Shown in pieces: positions 1,556 to 20,359 of a stretch of 20,359 bases of DNA. Each line of letters starts with the position of its first letter. Position 1 is the first letter of the stretch. The notes beneath the pieces were generated by a model. That model saw only the letters and a list, made by a program, of their open reading frames with translations, had not been told where the DNA came from and searched no databases. The position numbers were made by a program, and so were the translations under genes. The stretch is from a virus: positions 1-20,359 of IMG/VR virus record IMGVR_UViG_3300009537_000224; one strand, 5' to 3'.

Positions 1556-1804
1556 ATGAAAGAACAAGCAAAGCTCTTTGTGGTTGAAACAGAATATGAG
1601 AAGGAATGGTACGGGATGCCTGAATATAAAAATCAGGATTTAAGCCCTAAATATCAAATTATAGTTAGTTTTGCAACTAAACAGGATTTAAAAGATTTTG
1701 CTCAATTAGTTGGGCAACCGCTAACAACGAAAACGCAGAGTATATGGTTCCCAGCGGTAGAAATCGGCAGGTATAGCAATAAGAGGTTTATCGATGAATC
1801 CTAA
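1556..1804 (+). CDS. Small phage protein with SIWFP motif, partner of the glycosyltransferase
   Basis: 82 aa, ATG start with AGGGGG five bases upstream. The protein contains YQIIVSFATKQDLKDFAQLVGQ followed by KTQSIWFPA. This layout (strand, helix, GQ, then T-x-SIWYP-like motif) recurs in small phage proteins next to TET-associated glycosyltransferases and in ParB-like contexts. I recognise the pattern but no function is established to my knowledge. The last 11 bases overlap the glycosyltransferase gene, so the pair is co-translated. The AT-rich codon use matches that of the next gene and differs from genes on either side, suggesting the two travel as a unit. It may be an accessory subunit or DNA-binding adaptor, which is inference only. 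Confidence 0.6.
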   Translation: MKEQAKLFVVETEYEKEWYGMPEYKNQDLSPKYQIIVSFATKQDLKDFAQLVGQPLTTKTQSIWFPAVEIGRYSNKRFIDES

Positions 1805-2654
1805 ATACCCTATTTATGTTATTTCAAAAAATAGATGGGAAACGCGGCTGACTTCAAAAGCATTAGAGGCTATGGGAGTACCATATTCTATTGTCATTGA
1901 GCCTCAAGAGTATGCCCATTATGCCGCTGTTATTGATCCAGGAAAAATTCTAGTATTACCCTTTTCTAATTTAGGACAAGGCTCAATTCCAGCAAGGAAT
2001 TGGGTATGGGAAGATTCAATTGAAAAAGGGCATAAATGGCATTGGATTTTAGACGATAATATAAACGGGTTTTACCGATATAATAACAATCTTAAAGTAC
2101 CTATAAAATGTGGATCAACTTTTCGTGCCGCTGAAGATTTCGTTGAGAGGTATGAAAATATAGCTCAGGCGGGGTTTAATTATTTTATGTTTGTATCGCG
2201 AAAAGACCCGAAGCCTGTATATCAACTAAATACCCGCATTTATTCTTGTATATTAATTAGAAATTCTCTGCCCTTTAGGTGGCGCGGTAAATATAATGAG
2301 GACACAGACTTATCGATCAGGATATTAAAAGACCGTGAGTTTAATTGGTGTACAGTTCTTTTTAACGCATTCTTATGTAAGAAATCCCAGACAATGACAA
2401 TGAAAGGCGGTAATTCGGATGAATTATATAAGGGTAATGGGCGGCTATTAATGGCTCAATCATTAGCCGAACAGCACCCCGCAATAGTTAAAATAACCGA
2501 AAAATGGGGAAGGCCGCAACACCAGGTTGATTATAGGTTTTTTAAGAAGAAAAAATTAATAAGAAAACCTGGGTATGATTACCCGGAAAAGGTTGATAAT
2601 TTTGGGATGGTATTGCAAGAGAAAATTGACGGAAGATGGCATACAATAAAATAA
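1794..2654 (+). CDS. TET-associated-type glycosyltransferase (TAGT family)
   Basis: 286 aa, ATG start overlapping the upstream gene by 11 bases, with GAGG seven bases before it. The protein fits the phage TET-associated glycosyltransferase family: YPIYVISKNRW at the N-terminus (Rossmann-like sugar-nucleotide end), SIPARNWVWE at 64-73, a WILDDNI metal-binding acidic motif at 84-90, and NEDTDLSIR at 168-176 as the likely catalytic acidic region of a GT-A fold. Family members are predicted, and some shown, to add sugars to 5-hydroxymethylated pyrimidines in phage DNA. No TET/JBP dioxygenase or hydroxymethylase is visible in this window, so the acceptor base is open. Sampled lines are 33-37% G+C (1801-1860, 2101-2160) against 55% in the next gene (2761-2820), which suggests separate acquisition. 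Confidence 0.75.
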   Translation: MNPKYPIYVISKNRWETRLTSKALEAMGVPYSIVIEPQEYAHYAAVIDPGKILVLPFSNLGQGSIPARNWVWEDSIEKGHKWHWILDDNINGFYRYNNNLKVPIKCGSTFRAAEDFVERYENIAQAGFNYFMFVSRKDPKPVYQLNTRIYSCILIRNSLPFRWRGKYNEDTDLSIRILKDREFNWCTVLFNAFLCKKSQTMTMKGGNSDELYKGNGRLLMAQSLAEQHPAIVKITEKWGRPQHQVDYRFFKKKKLIRKPGYDYPEKVDNFGMVLQEKIDGRWHTIK

Positions 2655-2672
2655 CCCTAAAGGAGTAAAATG

Positions 2673-3311
2673 ATGAAAAAGATTATTATAGCATTGATTA
2701 TGTTAGCTTTACCTGCTGTTGCGCAAGCGGAAACTTATTCATGGATAAAAGGCGGGGCGAGTTATTGGGGCACGTTTGATGCCTGTTTCCCCGGCACCTG
2801 CTACGAAAACGGGGAAATCGAGACCAGCAACGACTTTTTTGTCCAGATCAGCCCGGTAGCAGTGAGGAAAAAGTTGAGTCGCAGGTTTGGCTTGCGAATG
2901 GAGCCTTATGCGGGCTATGCGGAACGCGATTTAGATTATAATGCCCGCGGTGTAAGGTTCAGCCAGGCCGAGGTGAAAGAGATTCAGATCGGGGGCAACT
3001 TGTTTCTTGATTATCAGATAACCCCTGGAATTGCGGTCTATATGGGGCCAACGGCGGGTGTTGAGTTCAGCCAGGTTGAGGGCAAATTTACGTCCGGCAG
3101 AGGGAGTATGCTGGCTAATACCGATATGACGTATAATTTCTACCCTGGGGCTGAGGCAGGCGCGGAATACCGCTGGAATAATCTTGCGATTGGCGGGTTC
3201 TGGCGTTGGACGAATCCTGATACTTACCAGGATCAGACATACCAGGTGAGATACGATTACGATCGAGGTCACCAGATCGGCGGTTCCCTAAAATTCTATT
3301 GGGGGAATTAA
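2673..3311 (+). CDS. Phage-encoded outer-membrane beta-barrel protein with signal peptide
   Basis: 212 aa from the second of two adjacent ATGs. AAGGAG at 2660-2665 is seven bases from ATG 2673 but only four from ATG 2670, so I prefer 2673. Residues 1-19 form a classical Sec signal peptide (MKK, hydrophobic core, AVAQA cleavage before E20). The mature part has alternating aromatic/polar strands rich in Gly and Tyr, such as LRMEPYAGYAERDLDY and GAEAGAEYRWNNLAIGGFWR, and ends SLKFYWGN. This suits a small outer-membrane barrel of the OmpX/OmpA-N type. C38 and C43 could form a disulfide. Phages carry such genes as morons that change host surface, block superinfection or aid serum resistance (Lom-like). 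Which applies here is unknown. It precedes the lysis genes. Confidence 0.72.
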   Translation: MKKIIIALIMLALPAVAQAETYSWIKGGASYWGTFDACFPGTCYENGEIETSNDFFVQISPVAVRKKLSRRFGLRMEPYAGYAERDLDYNARGVRFSQAEVKEIQIGGNLFLDYQITPGIAVYMGPTAGVEFSQVEGKFTSGRGSMLANTDMTYNFYPGAEAGAEYRWNNLAIGGFWRWTNPDTYQDQTYQVRYDYDRGHQIGGSLKFYWGN

Positions 3312-3381
3312 TCTGTATTTTTCTTTGATTTTATTATAGTATTTAAGGCGAGAGTATTCGCCAACTAACTTTGGTGGTAAT

Positions 3382-3735
3382 TTGCTCACTAAAAATTTTT
3401 CTCGAACAGAGTTCGCTTGTTCCTGCGGTTGTGGGTTAGATGATATTGATTTAACCCTCGTCCGCCAGCTACAGACCGCCCGCGATCTTTTCGGGGAACC
3501 CATCTCAATAACATCCGGCCTCCGGTGCCCATCGCACAACGAGCAGTCCGGGGGGAAGCCGCATTCTGCCCATCTATCAGGCTTCGCGGCTGATATCTCC
3601 TGCCCATCATCCAGTTTCCGCTTTAAAATTCTTCCCATCCTCCTTATATTCTTCTGTCGTATTGGCATCGGGGCCGGGTTTTTACACGTGGATAATGATT
3701 CCACAAAACCTCAGGGAGTGATATGGGTCTACTAA
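3382..3735 (+). CDS. Endolysin, peptidase M15 (D-Ala-D-Ala/L-Ala-D-Glu peptidase-like)
   Basis: 117 aa. The frame has no ATG or GTG before the domain, so TTG 3382 is the likely start, with a weak GGTGGT ribosome binding site. The sequence is a compact M15A zinc peptidase domain: an ITSGLRC segment at 43-49, SAHLSGFAADI at 62-72 supplying H64 and D71, and FLHVD at 100-104 supplying the third zinc ligand H102. The N-terminal CSCGCG at 13-18 is common in phage members of this group. The enzyme would cut peptide bonds in peptidoglycan at the end of infection. There is no signal peptide, so it needs the holin that follows. The length is typical of single-domain Gram-negative phage endolysins. Confidence 0.85.
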   Translation: MLTKNFSRTEFACSCGCGLDDIDLTLVRQLQTARDLFGEPISITSGLRCPSHNEQSGGKPHSAHLSGFAADISCPSSSFRFKILPILLIFFCRIGIGAGFLHVDNDSTKPQGVIWVY

Positions 3736-5001: not shown

Positions 5002-5211
5002 ATGGGATACCTGCTATTAATCTTTCTGTTAGGCCCGATGCCTAGTGATTCCACCCGTATAGGCGTATTAGATACGAGGGTAGTTGGAACGTTCGCTACA
5101 TTGGGGCATTGCGAACAAAAGGCCATGGAGATGAAAAGCAGGTTGCAGGAACCAAGGTTCAGGGAGTTCAGTGTTGGGTGCCTAGAGTTCACAGAGGTTA
5201 AAGAGATATGA
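5002..5211 (+). CDS. Small secreted or membrane protein, unknown
   Basis: 69 aa from ATG 5002, chosen because GGGA lies seven bases upstream and a longer in-frame start at 4945 would give a polar extension overlapping the previous gene. The N-terminus MGYLLLIFLLGPMPSDS looks like a short hydrophobic signal. The remainder has two cysteines (in GHCEQK and VGCLEF) spaced about 30 residues apart, which could pair by disulfide. No family recognised. Its stop overlaps the next start (ATGA). Confidence 0.5.
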   Translation: MGYLLLIFLLGPMPSDSTRIGVLDTRVVGTFATLGHCEQKAMEMKSRLQEPRFREFSVGCLEFTEVKEI

Positions 5212-5294
5212 TTAACTGGTGGTGGAAATGCCTGATATATGAATTTACCGAAGGCAAGCGAGGTTGCAGGAAATGGCGGTGGATTGAGGAATGA
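5208..5294 (+). CDS. 28-residue Trp-rich ORF in an overlap chain
   Basis: ATG 5208 overlaps the upstream stop (ATGA), and its own stop overlaps the ATG at 5291 in the same way. It encodes MINWWWKCLIYEFTEGKRGC followed by RKWRWIEE. The peptide is basic with five Trp and two Cys. Small Trp/Arg/Cys-rich proteins of this kind occur in other phages, but I know no function. The overlap at both ends supports translation. Confidence 0.45.
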   Translation: MINWWWKCLIYEFTEGKRGCRKWRWIEE

Positions 5295-5479
5295 GATTAA
5301 CAGGGACTCTGGTTATGGCAAATCAAAACGAAGATAAAGACTGGGGATGGAAAGAACGAACTGAGGATTTCTGTAAGTGCGGGGCGCCAAAGCAAAGACA
5401 CGCCAAAAAATGCTGGTTATGCACCGAAACCGACAGACAGGGCAGGATTAAGATTATTGAGGGCAAGGGCCACGATTAG
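5291..5479 (+). CDS. Small Cys-motif protein, last gene of the plus-strand set
   Basis: 62 aa. The start is either ATG 5291, coupled to the upstream stop, or ATG 5315, which has AGGGA eight bases before it; the choice is open. Both contain the core FCKCGAPKQRHAKKCWLC, with C28, C30, C41 and C44 (numbering from 5291), a likely zinc knuckle in which a GAPK-type turn follows the first Cys pair, as in small zinc ribbons. The tail is charged (RIKIIEGKGHD). Function is unknown. It ends four bases from the stop of the converging minus-strand operon. Confidence 0.5.
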   Translation: MRLTGTLVMANQNEDKDWGWKERTEDFCKCGAPKQRHAKKCWLCTETDRQGRIKIIEGKGHD

Positions 5480-5483
5480 GCAG

Positions 5484-5753
5484 TTACCTGAATATTTTGT
5501 CTATCCATGCCGCAACCGCCGCAAGGAACCCCCCGCCTGCTATACCTTTAAACAATTTGATATTATTAACATCTTTAACAAGCCCCGCGTCACCATTGGG
5601 ACCGCGCAAAATAGTACTATGGGTATCCACCCGCTTGATTAATGGCTCTAACATCAGCCTTTCCTGGACCTCATGCGAATTAAACCGCTCGTCAATATGG
5701 GTTTTTATGTCCGTTTTGAATTCATGTAAATCCTTTTTGCTGATATCCGCCAT
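5484..5753 (-). CDS. XhlA-like / holin-accessory membrane protein
   Basis: 89 aa, ATG with AAGGAG upstream. The N-terminal two thirds are hydrophilic and helical (EFKTDIKTHIDERFNSHEVQ), probably coiled coil. A GPNGDAGL turn and VNNIKLFK follow, then one C-terminal hydrophobic segment (IAGGGFLAAVAAWI, about 70-83) and a basic end. This N-out coil plus C-terminal anchor is seen in XhlA-type proteins that cooperate with holins, and in membrane proteins located after tail-fibre genes. It is the last gene of the minus-strand operon. The holin-accessory role is inferred from shape and position. Confidence 0.5.
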   Translation of the reverse strand: MADISKKDLHEFKTDIKTHIDERFNSHEVQERLMLEPLIKRVDTHSTILRGPNGDAGLVKDVNNIKLFKGIAGGGFLAAVAAWIDKIFR

Positions 5754-5766
5754 CCCCTAGCTCCTT

Positions 5767-14126: not shown

Positions 14127-14582
14127 TTAAATTTTCCATGCTTTTACAACCTCCACGTTCTTTTGAAATACCAGCCCGTTAACACCGGGGATTACCATGA
14201 AATCATTAAACCCCATGATAGCCATCGTAATACCATTCGTCAATCGTACTGCCACAGGGTCAGCGCTTTTCACCTTGACGCAGGCAATGTCGCCTGCCAT
14301 CATTTCATCTGCGTCAATCTCCGGGGCATCAAATTCATCAGCAAGTTTGGTAACGGTTTCCAGTATGGCCCCGCCTGAGTATTCGTGCATAGCCCTTAAA
14401 CCGCCGAAAGCGTCATGATATTTGCCTTTAAACGGCGCCCCCACATCAACGCCGGTGATTGTTTTTACGCCGTCACAGGCCGCCAGACAACAGTCAAACT
14501 GTCCCCACTGAAACGGTCTGTAAGTATTGGTCTCGATAAATTCACCCAATTTCTTTTCCCACCCCTCTATTTTTCTGGTCAT
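14127..14582 (-). CDS. DUF6950-family protein, NlpC/P60-like
   Basis: 151 aa, start overlapping the stop of the tail tubular B-like gene (ATGA). The motif FQWGQFDCCLAACDGVKTIT at 24-43 is the DUF6950 signature, an NlpC/P60-like arrangement in which C31 (or C32) would be the nucleophile. GLRAMHEYSGGAI and the MAGDIACVKV segment near 96-104 also fit. Proteins of this family are frequent in phage tail gene clusters and may be cell-wall peptidases of the virion, but activity is not established and the catalytic His is not obvious to me. Here it stands between tail tubular B and internal virion genes, where a virion murein hydrolase would be useful because the gp16-like protein lacks a visible one. 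Confidence 0.7.
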   Translation of the reverse strand: MTRKIEGWEKKLGEFIETNTYRPFQWGQFDCCLAACDGVKTITGVDVGAPFKGKYHDAFGGLRAMHEYSGGAILETVTKLADEFDAPEIDADEMMAGDIACVKVKSADPVAVRLTNGITMAIMGFNDFMVIPGVNGLVFQKNVEVVKAWKI

Positions 14583-17062
14583 TTTAACGCATTTAATGAA
14601 ATGGTTGGAGCTATCGCCAATAAAGTGAATGGCGCCGGGTCATCGTTCTGGATAAGAATCCTCGCATCCGTATCCCACCCGCCGTCAAATGCGTAATATT
14701 TTTCGCCTGTAAACAACGGCGCTCCTGCGTCTAAAGGGTCGCTAACATCCCTGAATTCGTGAGTTTCCAGATTGTCGGCATCAGGGCCAAAGGTGATCGT
14801 ATGGCTGTTAAGCAGAACGAACGTAACCCCGACAACCCTTTTAGTCTTTCCTATAGACGTCCCCGCCGCATTACCGCCCTCAAATTTCAAGGTTTTCAGC
14901 TTGTGGGTGTATCTTAACCCCATCTGTGCAACAGAAGAGGCTATATCCAATGTGACAGCCCCGCCAGAGACGGTCTTGTCGTCCTGTATAGCCCCATCAG
15001 CCCATACACCGACCGTCTCGCCCTCAAGATGGTCTAACCCGGTCATTGCTGTGGTTGACGTACTGTCATAGGTTACCAGAGAATCAAGGTAATAAGCATC
15101 CTCCTGATCGTCCCCCGTCTCGAAATCACGCTCAAACATCTCGATATAGCGTTTGGTTTCCCCATTAATTGTCCGTTTGACGATAAGCCACACCTCATCA
15201 CGGTTTGTTGAGTCTTGAGTCTGCCCTGAACCGTTCGTGCCGGGGATAGTGGACACGCTTTCAACCACAGAATTTCCGCTCCCAAAAGAACCGCCTATGA
15301 TATGCCGTCCCCACGCCACCACGTCTTCCTTCCTCCTGAACGTCATGGACAGCAATTGACCGTCATTTCTAACCCCCCAGACGATAGAATCAGGTTCTTC
15401 GGCGTAATCCATTTCCTCAACGCCGCCACGGGTGATATGTTCTGCAAGTCTCGTCATATCAAAGCCTTCGTACCCGTCAGATTCAAAAGTGAACCCGAAT
15501 TCCAGAATCTTGCGTTTGCCGCGCTGGATAAACAGAACGACATTATCAACCCGTACAGGCTCAAGATCGGCTGATTGTCTGGTAATCTGCCGCCTTACGG
15601 CTATATTGGACGGGGCTAAAGTTCCTGAGTTCGTTGCCGATGGTATCCATTCACCCCCGGCTGTACCCATAGCCAGCGTATCCTCTCCCGCGCTCATCCA
15701 GAATATAGCATTTACGTCATTAGCCGATATGGTAATAACGAAAGCATCGTCGTCCTGTACGGTTCCATCCCACGTTCCCGCTGTCGGATCGGAATCAGGA
15801 GCCATGTTTTCAATATCAGAGGTCTGAGAGGCCCAAAAGGTTTGCGGCTGATCGCCATTATTAGCGGCAAACATTCTCTGCTCAAAGAATGCCCCGCACG
15901 ATGGATATCCGTCAGTAGCCGACCATGCGCCTAGTGCCCACCGGGTTTCAGCGACAGTTGAAACTACCGTTCTTTTAATATCCACAGTCACCGCTGTGGT
16001 TGACGTGAATCCGGTAATAACGCCCCAACCCCAGTTAACCGTAGCCTCATCAGTCAACCTTATTAATCTGCCTACATCCGTGGTCTTGAACCCCTCGTCA
16101 TTATTAATACCAGTAACAGCCGAGGCTGTGAAAGTGACGCCTAATCCTGTGGCCGCTCCCGCCGTCATCGTGGTGGCAGTCGTGTTCTCATCAAGATAAG
16201 GACCGTCCTGCCACGCAACCTCAACCAAAGACCATGTGGTATGTCCTCTCCTTTCCAGCTTGTATGTCGGGTGTGCCACGTGGAACAAATACAGGACATC
16301 AGCCGATTGAGGCCCGTCCACCTTGGGAATCTGCGCCTCCGTGTAAGGCGTAGTCAATTCTATCGGCGCGTTGTCAATCAAGGACACATCATCAACCTGC
16401 AAGGTCTTGGCGGTCGTATGTAAAAACTGAACATAAAAGTCAACGCCAGTAACATCAAATGCGTAAGTGTGCCAGCCTACATAAGCCTTGAAATCATTGA
16501 CTATTTCAGTTCCCTTGGAACTTGTCCCGACCCTCAGTTTTAGATAATCCCCCGGCGCGCCATAAACCCTGAATCTTAAAACACGTTCTCCTCCCGACGT
16601 GCTTGTAACCTGCTGTTCTGCGTGGCCATCAGTAGTCCCGTTTGACGTGATAGACATTCTGGTATTGCCAGCGTCATGGGATATAGACGAACTGGCCCCC
16701 GATCTGTCCGTCCAGCTTGTGATTCCAGAATCAAACGTACCATTGGTTATCGAATCAGCGATATTATTAGCCGTGATCTGGGCTTGATTGCGGTAAAACC
16801 GGAACATCTGCTCGCCCATTTCGATCTGATAGGCCTGAGTGGTGGAAAACTGGAATTTCTTTAGCCTGCCTTTAACCCCTGACGATTTCAGTTCTTTGAT
16901 AAACCGAGTCCCGCCTCTACGCATAGCCCCGCCTTCCGGCAATGGGATCATGTTCTCCATGATCTCAACACCGCTTGGGTATTTGGCGAAATCTACCCTC
17001 GTAGATAGCCTTTCGGACAATTCTCCGGCATTAAACGAGGGACTTAGAGGCTGAATCTTCAT
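14579..17062 (-). CDS. Tail tubular protein B-like (T7 gp12-like) nozzle/stabilisation protein
   Basis: 827 aa, ATG start nine bases after the upstream gene. The N-terminus MKIQPLSPSFNAGELSERLS, then RVDFAKYPSGVEIMENMIPL and GGAMRRGGTRFI, is a recognisable start of podovirus tail nozzle/stabilisation proteins, and the long beta-rich body fits (many Thr, Gly, Asp and Trp). The section SADVLYLFHVAHPTYKLERR near 260-280 is also typical. In the virion the protein would form the lower tail tube under the gatekeeper protein encoded just upstream. T7 gp12 is 794 aa. Its stop overlaps the DUF6950 start, so the two are co-translated. Confidence 0.82.
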   Translation of the reverse strand: MKIQPLSPSFNAGELSERLSTRVDFAKYPSGVEIMENMIPLPEGGAMRRGGTRFIKELKSSGVKGRLKKFQFSTTQAYQIEMGEQMFRFYRNQAQITANNIADSITNGTFDSGITSWTDRSGASSSISHDAGNTRMSITSNGTTDGHAEQQVTSTSGGERVLRFRVYGAPGDYLKLRVGTSSKGTEIVNDFKAYVGWHTYAFDVTGVDFYVQFLHTTAKTLQVDDVSLIDNAPIELTTPYTEAQIPKVDGPQSADVLYLFHVAHPTYKLERRGHTTWSLVEVAWQDGPYLDENTTATTMTAGAATGLGVTFTASAVTGINNDEGFKTTDVGRLIRLTDEATVNWGWGVITGFTSTTAVTVDIKRTVVSTVAETRWALGAWSATDGYPSCGAFFEQRMFAANNGDQPQTFWASQTSDIENMAPDSDPTAGTWDGTVQDDDAFVITISANDVNAIFWMSAGEDTLAMGTAGGEWIPSATNSGTLAPSNIAVRRQITRQSADLEPVRVDNVVLFIQRGKRKILEFGFTFESDGYEGFDMTRLAEHITRGGVEEMDYAEEPDSIVWGVRNDGQLLSMTFRRKEDVVAWGRHIIGGSFGSGNSVVESVSTIPGTNGSGQTQDSTNRDEVWLIVKRTINGETKRYIEMFERDFETGDDQEDAYYLDSLVTYDSTSTTAMTGLDHLEGETVGVWADGAIQDDKTVSGGAVTLDIASSVAQMGLRYTHKLKTLKFEGGNAAGTSIGKTKRVVGVTFVLLNSHTITFGPDADNLETHEFRDVSDPLDAGAPLFTGEKYYAFDGGWDTDARILIQNDDPAPFTLLAIAPTISLNALK

Positions 17063-17071
17063 CTTACTTCC

Positions 17072-17671
17072 CTACCGCCATCGGCTTGAACGTGCGTCCA
17101 CCCACGACCCGCGCGGTCTGGTTTCCGGTGTTGAACCTAGAGCGTCTACAGACAAGGCATGGCCTAACGCTCTCTTGGCCTTCTTGCTCAACTGCTCCTC
17201 CATGACATTAGACGAGGCCAGGGAAATCGACAAAATCTGTGCTAGCGCAAGTATCAATGCCTTGCGGAACAACGGGGTCATTATATTTGGGTCGGTTTCC
17301 AGTTTGACGTAATCCAGATAAATATCCTCCGCGCTGGATTCCAGTATCCGCTTGGACCCCACCTGCCCCTCCCTGTAAATCATTGTTCCTGTCCCCGCAT
17401 CGTTATTGCTGACAGAATTTGTACGCACCCAGTCGGACGGCAGTTCGTAAGCGTAATCAAACCCATACGCGGGGGCAGTGGATAACCTGCCAAGTTTCAC
17501 TTTGACGCTGGCGAATTTCCAATGGCCAGCCGCCAGAAGGCCCGCAAGAGTTTCGTTATATATATTATTAACAGCCGTGGCCGGGGTGGAATTGCTTTGC
17601 GTAAAAGACGTGATAGTCTTCTCGCCTATCATTCGCAATGCGACATTCGCCATTTCAACTTTATCAGGCAC
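17072..17671 (-). CDS. Tail tubular protein A-like (T7 gp11-like) adaptor/gatekeeper
   Basis: 199 aa from GTG 17671, with AGGAGC six bases upstream. An ATG at residue 7 is an alternative. The beginning EMANVALRMIGEKTITSFTQ, then NNIYNETLAGLLAAGHWKFA (a helix ending HWKFA), is characteristic of tail tubular A family proteins, which join the portal to the tail nozzle. FDYAYELPSDWVR and a C-terminal helix (FRKALILALAQILSISLASS) agree. T7 gp11 is 196 aa. The last residues are Arg/Trp-rich. It overlaps the upstream 171-aa gene by eight bases and is followed closely by tail tubular B, the standard order. Confidence 0.85.
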   Translation of the reverse strand: MPDKVEMANVALRMIGEKTITSFTQSNSTPATAVNNIYNETLAGLLAAGHWKFASVKVKLGRLSTAPAYGFDYAYELPSDWVRTNSVSNNDAGTGTMIYREGQVGSKRILESSAEDIYLDYVKLETDPNIMTPLFRKALILALAQILSISLASSNVMEEQLSKKAKRALGHALSVDALGSTPETRPRGSWVDARSSRWR

Positions 17672-18179
17672 TTAAAGCTCCTACGCCGTTAACGGGAATG
17701 GGGATTTCACCATTCGCTATTTGATGGGCTGTCGCTTTATCATCGACTTCGGCGACGATTTTCCCATCCACTAGTACCAGATGCTTGCGGGAACCAACAG
17801 ACCATTTAACCGTCCCATTACCATTAACAAATCTTTCCTCCGGTTCCTCAATGACTTCCTCCTGAATCGGGTCTTCATGTCTGTACCTGTGGATAGTATC
17901 GCCGACAGGCCGAATCACAACGTTATCGCCCGCCAGTGATATGACGACCGTTTCACAGGATGCTACCAGTTTGTCAATCCTCGGTTCGCCATTGAAATGA
18001 TTGCTGAATTCCATCAGGTGTATGATATCGCCTGGCATGAAATTCCCGCGCAATGATCTGAAAAACCCCTCGCCAAGACACGCTTCCAGCGGGTGCGCGT
18101 AGCATGAATAAGTATAAACTTTGCGTAGCCCGTCTTCCGGTTTTGTCAATTTATCCGCTAATGCCGGTATGTCACTCAT
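17664..18179 (-). CDS. Unknown phage protein before the tail genes (171 aa)
   Basis: 171 aa, start overlapping the upstream stop. No family recognised. Residues 1-100 contain SCYAHPLEACLGEGFFRSLR, MPGDIIHLMEF and a beta-rich VVISLAGDNVVIRPVGDT. A charged linker (EEVIEEPEERF) leads to a C-terminal small domain with GTVKWSVGSRKHLVLVDGKI and EVDDKATAHQIANGEIPIPV. The two-domain design with a Glu-rich hinge suggests a structural or decorating protein. It follows the glycosyltransferase and directly precedes tail tubular A in one operon, so it may be a virion neck/decoration protein or the acceptor of the modification. Both are inference. Confidence 0.6.
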   Translation of the reverse strand: MSDIPALADKLTKPEDGLRKVYTYSCYAHPLEACLGEGFFRSLRGNFMPGDIIHLMEFSNHFNGEPRIDKLVASCETVVISLAGDNVVIRPVGDTIHRYRHEDPIQEEVIEEPEERFVNGNGTVKWSVGSRKHLVLVDGKIVAEVDDKATAHQIANGEIPIPVNGVGALSA

Positions 18180-18343
18180 AAATCCCCCTTGGTTTCGATT
18201 AATTCTTTCAATGATTTATCCCAATTCTTGCTTCTCTCGTATTCCATGTTCTCTTTAATTGCTTTCATATCTATAAGCAGTTCTTCCAGACCGAGAATGC
18301 ACTGCGTAACCGCCTCATATTCCAATTTTTCCTGTTCGTTCAT
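18176..18343 (-). CDS. 55-residue helical protein in an overlap chain
   Basis: ATG 18343 overlaps the stop of the glycosyltransferase gene (ATGA), and its own TGA overlaps the ATG of the 171-aa gene. It encodes MNEQEKLEYEAVTQCILGLE, then ELLIDMKAIKENMEYERSKN and WDKSLKELIETKGDL. It is wholly alpha-helical in character and acidic/basic mixed, likely a coiled-coil dimer. Function is unknown. Overlaps at both ends make it a confident gene despite its size. Confidence 0.62.
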   Translation of the reverse strand: MNEQEKLEYEAVTQCILGLEELLIDMKAIKENMEYERSKNWDKSLKELIETKGDL

Positions 18344-18993
18344 TGCCAATGTTTTTTTACCCAGTCAAGGTGCGTGTATTCATGGTTTTTTTGCCTGCCA
18401 TGAAAGAAAACAATCCTTGCTCTGTCAGGTATGGTTTCCCTGATAGTGTAACGGTCTGGTTTGGCTGAAAACATCTGATCGGGGAATAGATCCTGCCAGT
18501 ATTCCATATTTTCACCTAATTGCTTTTCCAGCCAGAATCTCTCATTCCCGCCCGTATCCTCCCCTGTTTTCTGAGGGTCCAGTTCCAATGCCTTATACAA
18601 TTTTTCCTCTAAATCCTCATCACCGCCCTGCCACGCATTCAAAGCCCCGCATGGTTTTCTTGGCCTGTAAAAATCCTCGATTGTGCAAAACTTGCCTTGA
18701 TAGCCAAGAATGTGGTCAATATTCCCGGTAATGACGACATCCAGATCAAACATGAACTGCGTGCCAAGCAACCCGTAAGACGTGTCATAAGCCGCCATTT
18801 TCTTTAATCTCCTGAACCAATCCACTTTCAGGGGCAGACATTCTATCCCCGTAACTGGCCTGTCTGTAATACAATAAAAATCAAATGGTTGAGTCGTATG
18901 TCGTTCCACCATGTTTTTCAAGGTATGAACATACCGTTCGCCCTCTTTCCAGTCCCCCCATAAATAACAAAGAACATTGACTCTATTTAACAC
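18340..18993 (-). CDS. GT-A-type glycosyltransferase-like protein
   Basis: 217 aa from GTG 18993, with GGAAGAAG upstream; it overlaps the previous gene by 11 bases. It starts RVNVLCYLWGDWKEGERYVH, then FDFYCITDRPVTGIECLPLK, and has QFMFDLDVVITGNIDHIL at 79-96 with D83-L-D85 as the metal-binding DxD of a GT-A fold. This is the layout of family-8-like or capsular-type transferases (large-scale 'FCITD...DLDVVI.GNID' proteins found in many phages and bacteria). Donor sugar and acceptor are unknown. Neighbouring methyltransferases suggest a methylated sugar placed on a virion protein or other polymer. It shows no similarity that I can see to the TAGT at 1794-2654. Confidence 0.7.
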   Translation of the reverse strand: MLNRVNVLCYLWGDWKEGERYVHTLKNMVERHTTQPFDFYCITDRPVTGIECLPLKVDWFRRLKKMAAYDTSYGLLGTQFMFDLDVVITGNIDHILGYQGKFCTIEDFYRPRKPCGALNAWQGGDEDLEEKLYKALELDPQKTGEDTGGNERFWLEKQLGENMEYWQDLFPDQMFSAKPDRYTIRETIPDRARIVFFHGRQKNHEYTHLDWVKKHWQ

Positions 18994-19249
18994 TGTTTAT
19001 TTCTTCTTCCTTGGTTTCGTAAATTAACTCAGCCATTCTCATATTGTAGTTTTCCAGTAATTTATGCCCCATACGGTGAGCCATATCATGCGCTTCATTC
19101 AAAAGATCATGGATTTCAGGATCGTCTGTTTTATTGTATATATCCCGCATGACCTGACATATAGACCTGTAATTGGGATTGGTATATTTTGCCCTGATCG
19201 GGTACTTGATTTCCCTTTTAGGCGGGTTATCATCCAGTTTAAGCCCCAT
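18983..19249 (-). CDS. 88-aa helical protein between methyltransferase and glycosyltransferase
   Basis: ATG 19249 is chosen because GGAGGT (19263-19258) stands eight bases upstream; a longer start at 19285 would add 12 residues inside the methyltransferase. The N-terminus is basic and Pro-rich (LDDNPPKREIKYPIRAKY). The rest is helical: YRSICQVMRDIYNKTDDPEI, then HDLLNEAHDMAHRMGHKLLE. Proteins with a DPEI-x-x-LL-x-EA-x-x-MA helix pair occur in other phages beside methyltransferase genes, but I know no function. It could be an adaptor for the enzymes on both sides. Confidence 0.6.
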   Translation of the reverse strand: MGLKLDDNPPKREIKYPIRAKYTNPNYRSICQVMRDIYNKTDDPEIHDLLNEAHDMAHRMGHKLLENYNMRMAELIYETKEEEINSVK

Positions 19250-19787
19250 AGCCACGGACCTCCATAGGTTTCTGGAACGCGTCAATATGCTTTAATTTCT
19301 CAGCCGCCATCACAAACACCTGCCTGTTTTCCGGCAAACCCGGCATGGGGAATTCGTCTTTCACGGTAAATCCGTTGAGTTCGCAGAATTTGGCTATCCA
19401 TTTGGGGACGGTGCGGTTTATGCCGTGACTGTGCCAACCGCCGTCCGGGTGAACGGATATCAACATGCCGCCAACCTGCACAGCGGATAATGCGTTTGAC
19501 CATGCGCTATGGTTGTCCCATACATGCTCAAGCGTCCCTATATTAATAACTGTTCTGTATTTTTGGAATATGGAGGGTTGGGGGTCGTTCAGGTTGAGCT
19601 TTAAATCACCGCCGTCCAGATCAATGGAGGTGTAATCTGCAACGCCGAGGCTTGCGAAGAAATCTCTTGCGGTATCAAATGATTCCATGCCGCAGGATTG
19701 ATTGCCCATCATTAACACAGGGTCTTTAAACCACCGGAGATTGGAATATTTGGAGTACATAGGCATATGCTTTGGATTGATAGTCAT
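19239..19787 (-). CDS. Class I SAM-dependent methyltransferase-like protein
   Basis: 182 aa, start overlapping the upstream methyltransferase stop (ATGA). The pattern is of a small Rossmann methyltransferase: VLMMGNQSCGMESFDTARDF at 24-43, YTSIDLDGGDLKLNLN at 52-67 (acidic residue binding the SAM ribose), TVINIGTLEHVWD at 79-91 and AVQVGGMLISVHP at 102-114. The first motif has GNQ in place of a G-x-G loop, so SAM binding may be altered. Phage members with NIGTLEHV are often found with glycosyltransferases. There is no target recognition domain as in DNA methylases, so a sugar, lipid or small-molecule acceptor is more likely. Confidence 0.7.
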   Translation of the reverse strand: MTINPKHMPMYSKYSNLRWFKDPVLMMGNQSCGMESFDTARDFFASLGVADYTSIDLDGGDLKLNLNDPQPSIFQKYRTVINIGTLEHVWDNHSAWSNALSAVQVGGMLISVHPDGGWHSHGINRTVPKWIAKFCELNGFTVKDEFPMPGLPENRQVFVMAAEKLKHIDAFQKPMEVRGYGA

Positions 19788-20281
19788 ACGATTTCAATGC
19801 CCCAGCAATAATCAGAGAACTCCGATACCCCGGAGCCAAACTTTTCATCAACAGCTTCAGTCACCCCGGGGAATCTTTCATGGTGGTAATCATGCCCCAT
19901 CATATACCCGCCTGATTTTACTTTAGGCAACCAGGCATTGATCTCACTTCTAACTGATTCATAACTATGATCCGCATCTATAAAAACGTAATCCAATGAT
20001 TTATCCGCAAATTCCAACGCCGCAAGAACAGTATCCATTTTCAATATCTTAATCCTGCCGTTGTACTTCTTGATACCTTCCATGACGACAGTCTCAAAAT
20101 AGTCCATTTGATCTTGAGGTTTGCCGTGAAACTCTTTCCAGATATCAACCCCGGTAATATTGAGATAAGGAAACCGTTTAGCTAAGCGAAGCAGGGTGTC
20201 TCCTTTTAAAACTCCTAATTCCACCCCGTTCTGCCAACCGCGGGATTCTATTAACTCCCCGATAATGTCCCATCTTCTCAT
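19784..20281 (-). CDS. SAM-dependent methyltransferase, Methyltransf_24-like
   Basis: 165 aa from ATG 20281. The stop of the gene before it (TAG 20284-20282) is directly adjacent and no ribosome binding site is visible, so it probably depends on reinitiation. Motif I is NGVELGVLKGDTLLRLA at 18-34, followed by ITGVDIWKEFHG at 42-53, LDYVFIDADHSYESVRSEI at 96-114 and SGGYMMGHDYHH at 123-134. These are hallmarks of the Methyltransf_24 / cephalosporin-hydroxylase-like group often linked to sugar or polysaccharide methylation. The length is compact but complete. Together with the 182-aa enzyme and the GT it forms a coupled modification unit upstream of the tail genes. Confidence 0.78.
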   Translation of the reverse strand: MRRWDIIGELIESRGWQNGVELGVLKGDTLLRLAKRFPYLNITGVDIWKEFHGKPQDQMDYFETVVMEGIKKYNGRIKILKMDTVLAALEFADKSLDYVFIDADHSYESVRSEINAWLPKVKSGGYMMGHDYHHERFPGVTEAVDEKFGSGVSEFSDYCWGIEIV

Positions 20282-20359
20282 CTAGGTGAACCAAGTAATT
20301 CTTTCGTGAACCCTGACATTGAAAATACCAAACCTTTGAAGTAGCTTCTGAACAGATGC
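20282..20359 (-). CDS. C-terminal end of a gene continuing off the right edge
   Basis: The last 25 codons of a minus-strand gene are visible, encoding ASVQKLLQRFGIFNVRVHER then ITWFT, followed by TAG. It touches the methyltransferase start. The piece is too short to name. Frame, direction and abutment agree with membership of the same operon. Confidence 0.5.
   Translation of the reverse strand, partial: ASVQKLLQRFGIFNVRVHERITWFT

Follow-up and report, generated by a model that had tools for sequence, protein, structure and literature searches.

The window analysed here is the whole of the IMG/VR virus fragment IMGVR_UViG_3300009537_000224 (20,359 bases, 20.4 kb). Reading inwards from the contig end, its minus strand encodes a cut open reading frame (ORF), a methyltransferase (MT1), a likely second methyltransferase (MT2), an 88-aa protein, a glycosyltransferase (GT), proteins of 55 and 171 aa, and tail tubular proteins A (TTA) and B (TTB). 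The cut ORF is represented by its 3′ end (20282-20359), an open frame whose TAG directly abuts the ATG of MT1; its final 25 residues read ASVQKLLQRFGIFNVRVHERITWFT, and the remainder lies beyond the contig end. MT1 (19784-20281; 165 aa), which Pfam assigns to the class I SAM methyltransferases of the Methyltransf_24 family, is followed by MT2 (19239-19787; 182 aa), the 88-aa protein (18983-19249), GT (18340-18993; 217 aa, GTG start), the 55-aa protein (18176-18343) and the 171-aa protein (17664-18179), and then by TTA (17072-17671; phrog_394, 8e-39) and TTB (14579-17062; phrog_376, 2e-195). TTA shares about 50% identity with its relatives and TTB about 40% with the TTB of a Pelagibacter phage, and the identities of both tail proteins are certain by sequence comparison.

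Successive genes from MT1 to TTA overlap by 4, 11, 11, 4, 4 and 8 bases. The first-pass annotation had described six overlapping genes leading into tail tubular A, and all six frames are indeed present on the minus strand in the order claimed, although the span it assigned to them (18176-20359) leaves out the 171-aa gene. Other viral contigs contain homologues of GT, MT1, MT2 and the 171-aa protein, so the ORFs of the island are not chance frames. The 88-aa and 55-aa proteins, both helical according to the first-pass annotation, gave no relatives in Pfam, PHROG or the viral contigs, and the exact six-gene set had no second instance among the loci compared. GC content is 37-49% in the island genes versus 50-52% in TTA and TTB. 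No major capsid protein (MCP) gene lies within the 20.4-kb window, and no viral contig overlapped exactly with its MT1 end, which left the capsid gene of the source phage out of reach.

Several further features lie on the plus strand of the window. The N-terminal part of the first ORF (3-566) contains Glu-Val repeats (EVEVEVEVEVEE), a simple repeat of potentially variable length. A TET-associated glycosyltransferase (TAGT, PF20691) is encoded at 1794-2654 (Pfam 1.4e-39), through which the source phage may also glycosylate its own DNA. Judged by eye, a 213-aa protein (2670-3311) has a signal-peptide-like start and the look of an outer-membrane beta-barrel, and possibly alters the host surface, while a small peptidase_M15-like protein (3382-3735) is a candidate endolysin.

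Enzyme families encoded by the island

GT matches phrog_1962 (1e-22), and in the PDB a six-member profile of its family matched Skp1 galactosyltransferase (1e-7) and glycogenin (1e-3), both enzymes of protein-linked glycans; a Pfam search with the single GT sequence gave no match. In the family alignment, the DxD metal motif is intact as DLD at residues 83-85, with D83 and D85 invariant, and the C-terminal histidine-glycine motif is intact as FFHG close to the C-terminus, where F197 and G199 do not vary and the histidine is mostly conserved. On these sequence features the protein is a GT8/glycogenin-like glycosyltransferase, in agreement with its earlier description as a GT-A-like transferase.

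MT1 matches Pfam Methyltransf_24 at 4e-17 (63.4 bits against a curated cut-off of 26.3), and among PDB entries its family profile matched O-methyltransferases such as YrrM and the sugar O-methyltransferase NovP. Conserved in the family are an ExGxxxG motif, a later acidic position (D46) and DA-H...D residues that resemble a metal site, and MT1 is probably a metal-dependent O-methyltransferase of sugars or small molecules. DPPY and PCQ motifs are absent from both MT1 and MT2. MT1 also matches PHROG 2675, a family labelled DNA methyltransferase; part of this family matches a Methyltransf_24 domain, and because another part matches a glycosyltransferase the label looks wrong. A cyanophage gene of PHROG 2675 (L209; NC_047713.1 29141-29695) is flanked by genes for a 2OG-Fe(II) oxygenase and for a weakly GT8-like protein, with tail fibre genes close by.

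For MT2, no Pfam or NCBIfam match and no significant PDB match was obtained, and a pattern search of phages, bacterial genomes and viral contigs returned nothing. Its sole homologue, in the siphovirus-like contig L013, was reached through the GT locus there (9e-11, 28% identity over 109 residues) and itself matches Methyltransf_23 at 6e-5, below the cut-off. A structure model of MT2 from the two sequences reached a pLDDT of 32, and hhalign comparisons with the alignments of the L015-type methyltransferases and of MT1 were negative. Since MT2 has no direct profile match and its homologue falls below the cut-off, it is likely, and only likely, a methyltransferase. The earlier reading of two SAM methyltransferases is therefore upheld for MT1, while for MT2 it depends on this one homologue.

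Position of the enzymes in other phages

The podovirus comparison comprised 36 loci found through TTA. About 20 contigs show portal, scaffold and capsid genes, then one or two small proteins, a homologue of the 171-aa protein, TTA and TTB, with no enzymes recognised. Elsewhere the same interval is occupied by enzymes. For example, one locus (L005) encodes a sulfotransferase-family protein and two sialyltransferase-like proteins (the latter read by eye). In another (L012), the same GT, at 38% identity, is accompanied by an MptE-like protein recognised by eye, a methyltransferase and a weakly matched heptosyltransferase-like protein (E 0.017); a homologue of the 171-aa protein (97% probability by hhalign) and TTA come next. 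In a third (L038), a member of the same GT family and a second GT immediately precede TTA. By this comparison the slot between capsid and TTA is variable among related podoviruses and the island is accessory; as the 171-aa gene is present where the enzymes are absent, it counts as core and the enzymes as optional cargo. The six-gene set as a whole, which the first-pass annotation proposed to look for before TTA in other genomes, was found only here, although the same GT lies between MCP and TTA in the podoviruses L012 and L038.

The 171-aa protein had also been named as a candidate acceptor. A dedicated role of this kind is not supported, given its place directly before TTA in the roughly 20 enzyme-free relatives. 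Searches of viral contigs and annotated phages for close relatives of the protein found none, and those known were reached only via TTA. Its AlphaFold model (pLDDT 78.5) has two beta-rich parts, and a fold search with this model gave no PDB match, returning only uncharacterised phage proteins.

A GT profile search found relatives in 482 viral stretches, of which the best 80 were kept and dereplicated at 80% identity to 66 loci; related loci remain in the counts, and ORF calling in the metagenome contigs was mechanical. These 66 loci (from the best 80 of the 482 stretches) span many phage lineages, and MCP was detected in 40 of them. The capsid models were made from recurrent clusters of the same loci, so the figure of 40 is not independent of the sampling; the result on orientation is unaffected. 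In all 40 loci with a detectable MCP, its gene lies upstream of GT on the same strand, at a median distance of about 1.6 kb, and across the 66 loci tail or connector genes lie downstream of GT far more often than upstream (41 versus 2). Representative neighbours by PHROG include portal, major head, head maturation protease, head decoration, adaptor, neck and major tail proteins.

GT and MT1 are also physically linked in other phages. Fourteen contigs, several of which are almost identical, carry a single open frame that encodes GT, MT1 and an MptE/DUF115-like domain, and these fused genes adjoin portal, capsid and tail genes; the MptE-like central domain gave no match to PDB sequences. As separate genes, MT1 adjoins GT in four loci (L062, L090, L045 and L022) and lies near it in a fifth (L064). 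In the siphovirus-like L013, genes for MT1, MT2, a sulfotransferase-like protein and two GTs, the same GT among them, stand in this order between the capsid and head-tail genes, so that the MT1-MT2 succession of the window recurs there; its MT1 homologue (5188-5765) is split over two frames, through either decay or sequencing error. In L002, a 545-aa protein with collagen-like repeats (1769-3406) is encoded directly before an island of MptE-like, GT, two methyltransferase and further GT genes, and is a possible acceptor in that phage.

GT relatives also occur outside capsid regions, namely in phage P1 (pmgQ) and in cyanophage-like loci. In P1, pmgO and pmgQ (L010, 3060-5618) are relatives of the cassette genes. 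A 166-kb phage contig (L003, 3171-5976) carries the same GT family beside tail-fibre-like genes and a 2OG-Fe(II) oxygenase, an arrangement in which hydroxylation and glycosylation of the fibre is possible.

The TAGT of the same window provides a control. Both it and the island GT are phage glycosyltransferases, but no similarity between them was detected (the island GT has no TAGT match by Pfam) and their genomic neighbourhoods differ. The neighbours of 16 TAGT loci were mostly DNA methyltransferases, polymerase, RusA and ParB-like proteins, and few were structural, whereas those of 18 GT loci were sialyltransferase-like proteins, methyltransferases and head, neck and tail proteins. A capsid model was matched in 2 of 80 TAGT loci, a comparison biased by the origin of the models in GT and TTA loci and by the somewhat shorter length of the TAGT loci.

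Proposed role and comparison with known systems

We propose, with a probability of roughly two in three, that the island serves virion decoration, as an accessory cassette occupying the variable interval from the major capsid gene to TTA. The recurrence of the enzymes behind the capsid gene in many unrelated phages makes a methylated sugar on the particle the most likely product, and their capsid-side position, together with the fusion or adjacency of GT and MT1, argues for a glycan that is built and methylated during particle assembly. In such a scheme the GT8-like enzyme would move a sugar from a host nucleotide-sugar onto a virion protein, or onto a sugar already there, and MT1, and probably MT2, would then O-methylate the added sugar. 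As the capsid genes are the constant neighbour, we infer that the acceptor would most likely be the major capsid protein or a head-fibre-like protein from the same operon, just upstream. The enzymes would be made with the particle proteins, late in infection, as expected from the overlap of their genes with one another and with the tail genes. Possible benefits would be shielding of the particle or tuning of its adsorption.

It is conceivable that the enzymes act instead on surface glycans of the host late in infection, for example on lipopolysaccharide or capsule, blocking superinfection or keeping progeny from sticking to debris. Small soluble glycosyltransferases and sugar methyltransferases do serve surface glycans, and neighbouring islands encode MptE-like proteins and the weakly matched heptosyltransferase-like protein. 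However, no membrane-associated or flippase genes were recognised within the island, phage genes that modify the surface are typically expressed in lysogeny or early in infection, and in many lineages the cassette is embedded among head and tail genes, so that this explanation appears unlikely. We consider it quite unlikely, too, that the enzymes have a small-molecule substrate and no virion role, the capsid-tail interval being merely a tolerated site of insertion. The variability of the slot and the lower GC content of the island relative to TTA and TTB would fit such an origin, but unrelated phages present one theme in the slot (GT, MptE-like, methyltransferase and sulfotransferase genes) rather than random cargo.

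A joint role with the TAGT in modifying phage DNA was rejected as very improbable. The presence of the TAGT in the window and the DNA methyltransferase label of the PHROG family matched by MT1 speak for it, yet that label looks mistaken, the island GT does not match TAGT, MT1 resembles O-methyltransferases, both methyltransferases lack the DPPY and PCQ motifs, and the relatives of GT are not found amid DNA-modification genes. The suggestion of the first-pass annotation that the product modifies the particle and not DNA is thus supported, both by this lack of TAGT similarity and by the ties of the enzymes to virion genes (the capsid position in all 40 loci with a detected MCP, the podoviruses L012 and L038, and the 14 fusions).

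Beyond this island, the virion-decoration reading may extend to a widespread module of tailed phages, in which a glycogenin-like GT is joined or fused to MptE/DUF115-like and Methyltransf_24 domains in a fixed slot after the capsid gene, giving O-methylated, and elsewhere possibly sulfated, coats to many unrelated phages. This generalisation is tentative, and we hold it at somewhat less than even odds. A literature search found no description of the capsid-adjacent enzyme set or of its fixed place, and in the literature found virion glycosylation has been demonstrated in only a few phages. A recognisable cassette at a fixed place would allow glycosylated virions to be predicted from sequence, would name capsid and head-fibre proteins as likely acceptors, and would correct the misleading phage labels 'DNA methyltransferase' and 'alpha-2,3-sialyltransferase'. 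Coated particles would also bear on phage persistence, adsorption and recognition by antibodies.

Among known phages, the closest isolates by TTB are the Pelagibacter phage HTVC010P and its relatives (about 39-46% identity). These HTVC010P-like podoviruses share the TTA-TTB pair and the common portal-capsid-TTA-TTB order; HTVC010P itself has no annotated enzyme genes between capsid and TTA. In phages P1 and P7, pmgQ and hdmD are homologues of GT (26.6% identity) and P1 pmgO is MptE/sialyltransferase-like; pmgO and pmgQ are annotated with a 'putative morphogenetic function', and P1 virions may merit examination for glycans. Unlike the island, the P1/P7 cluster does not lie between capsid and tail genes and has no annotated methyltransferase. 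In Tetraselmis viridis virus S20, an island at the capsid-neck junction, lying between the head maturation protease and the head closure gene, combines the same GT family with a GT2, a methyltransferase and MptE/sialyltransferase-like genes; this virus belongs to another phage lineage and carries another gene set, with a GT of 26% identity. In the mycobacteriophages Che8, Corndog and Myrna, according to the accounts in PMC12363180 and PMC12619734 (citing Freeman et al. 2023), the phages' own glycosyltransferases decorate capsid and tail-tube proteins, and this virion glycosylation shields the particles from antibodies. What the island shares with these systems, as they are described there, is a phage-encoded glycosyltransferase. 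The island instead places a GT8-like enzyme and its one or two methyltransferases in the capsid-tail slot of a podovirus, and would represent a different form of a phenomenon that is known in general from the mycobacteriophages.
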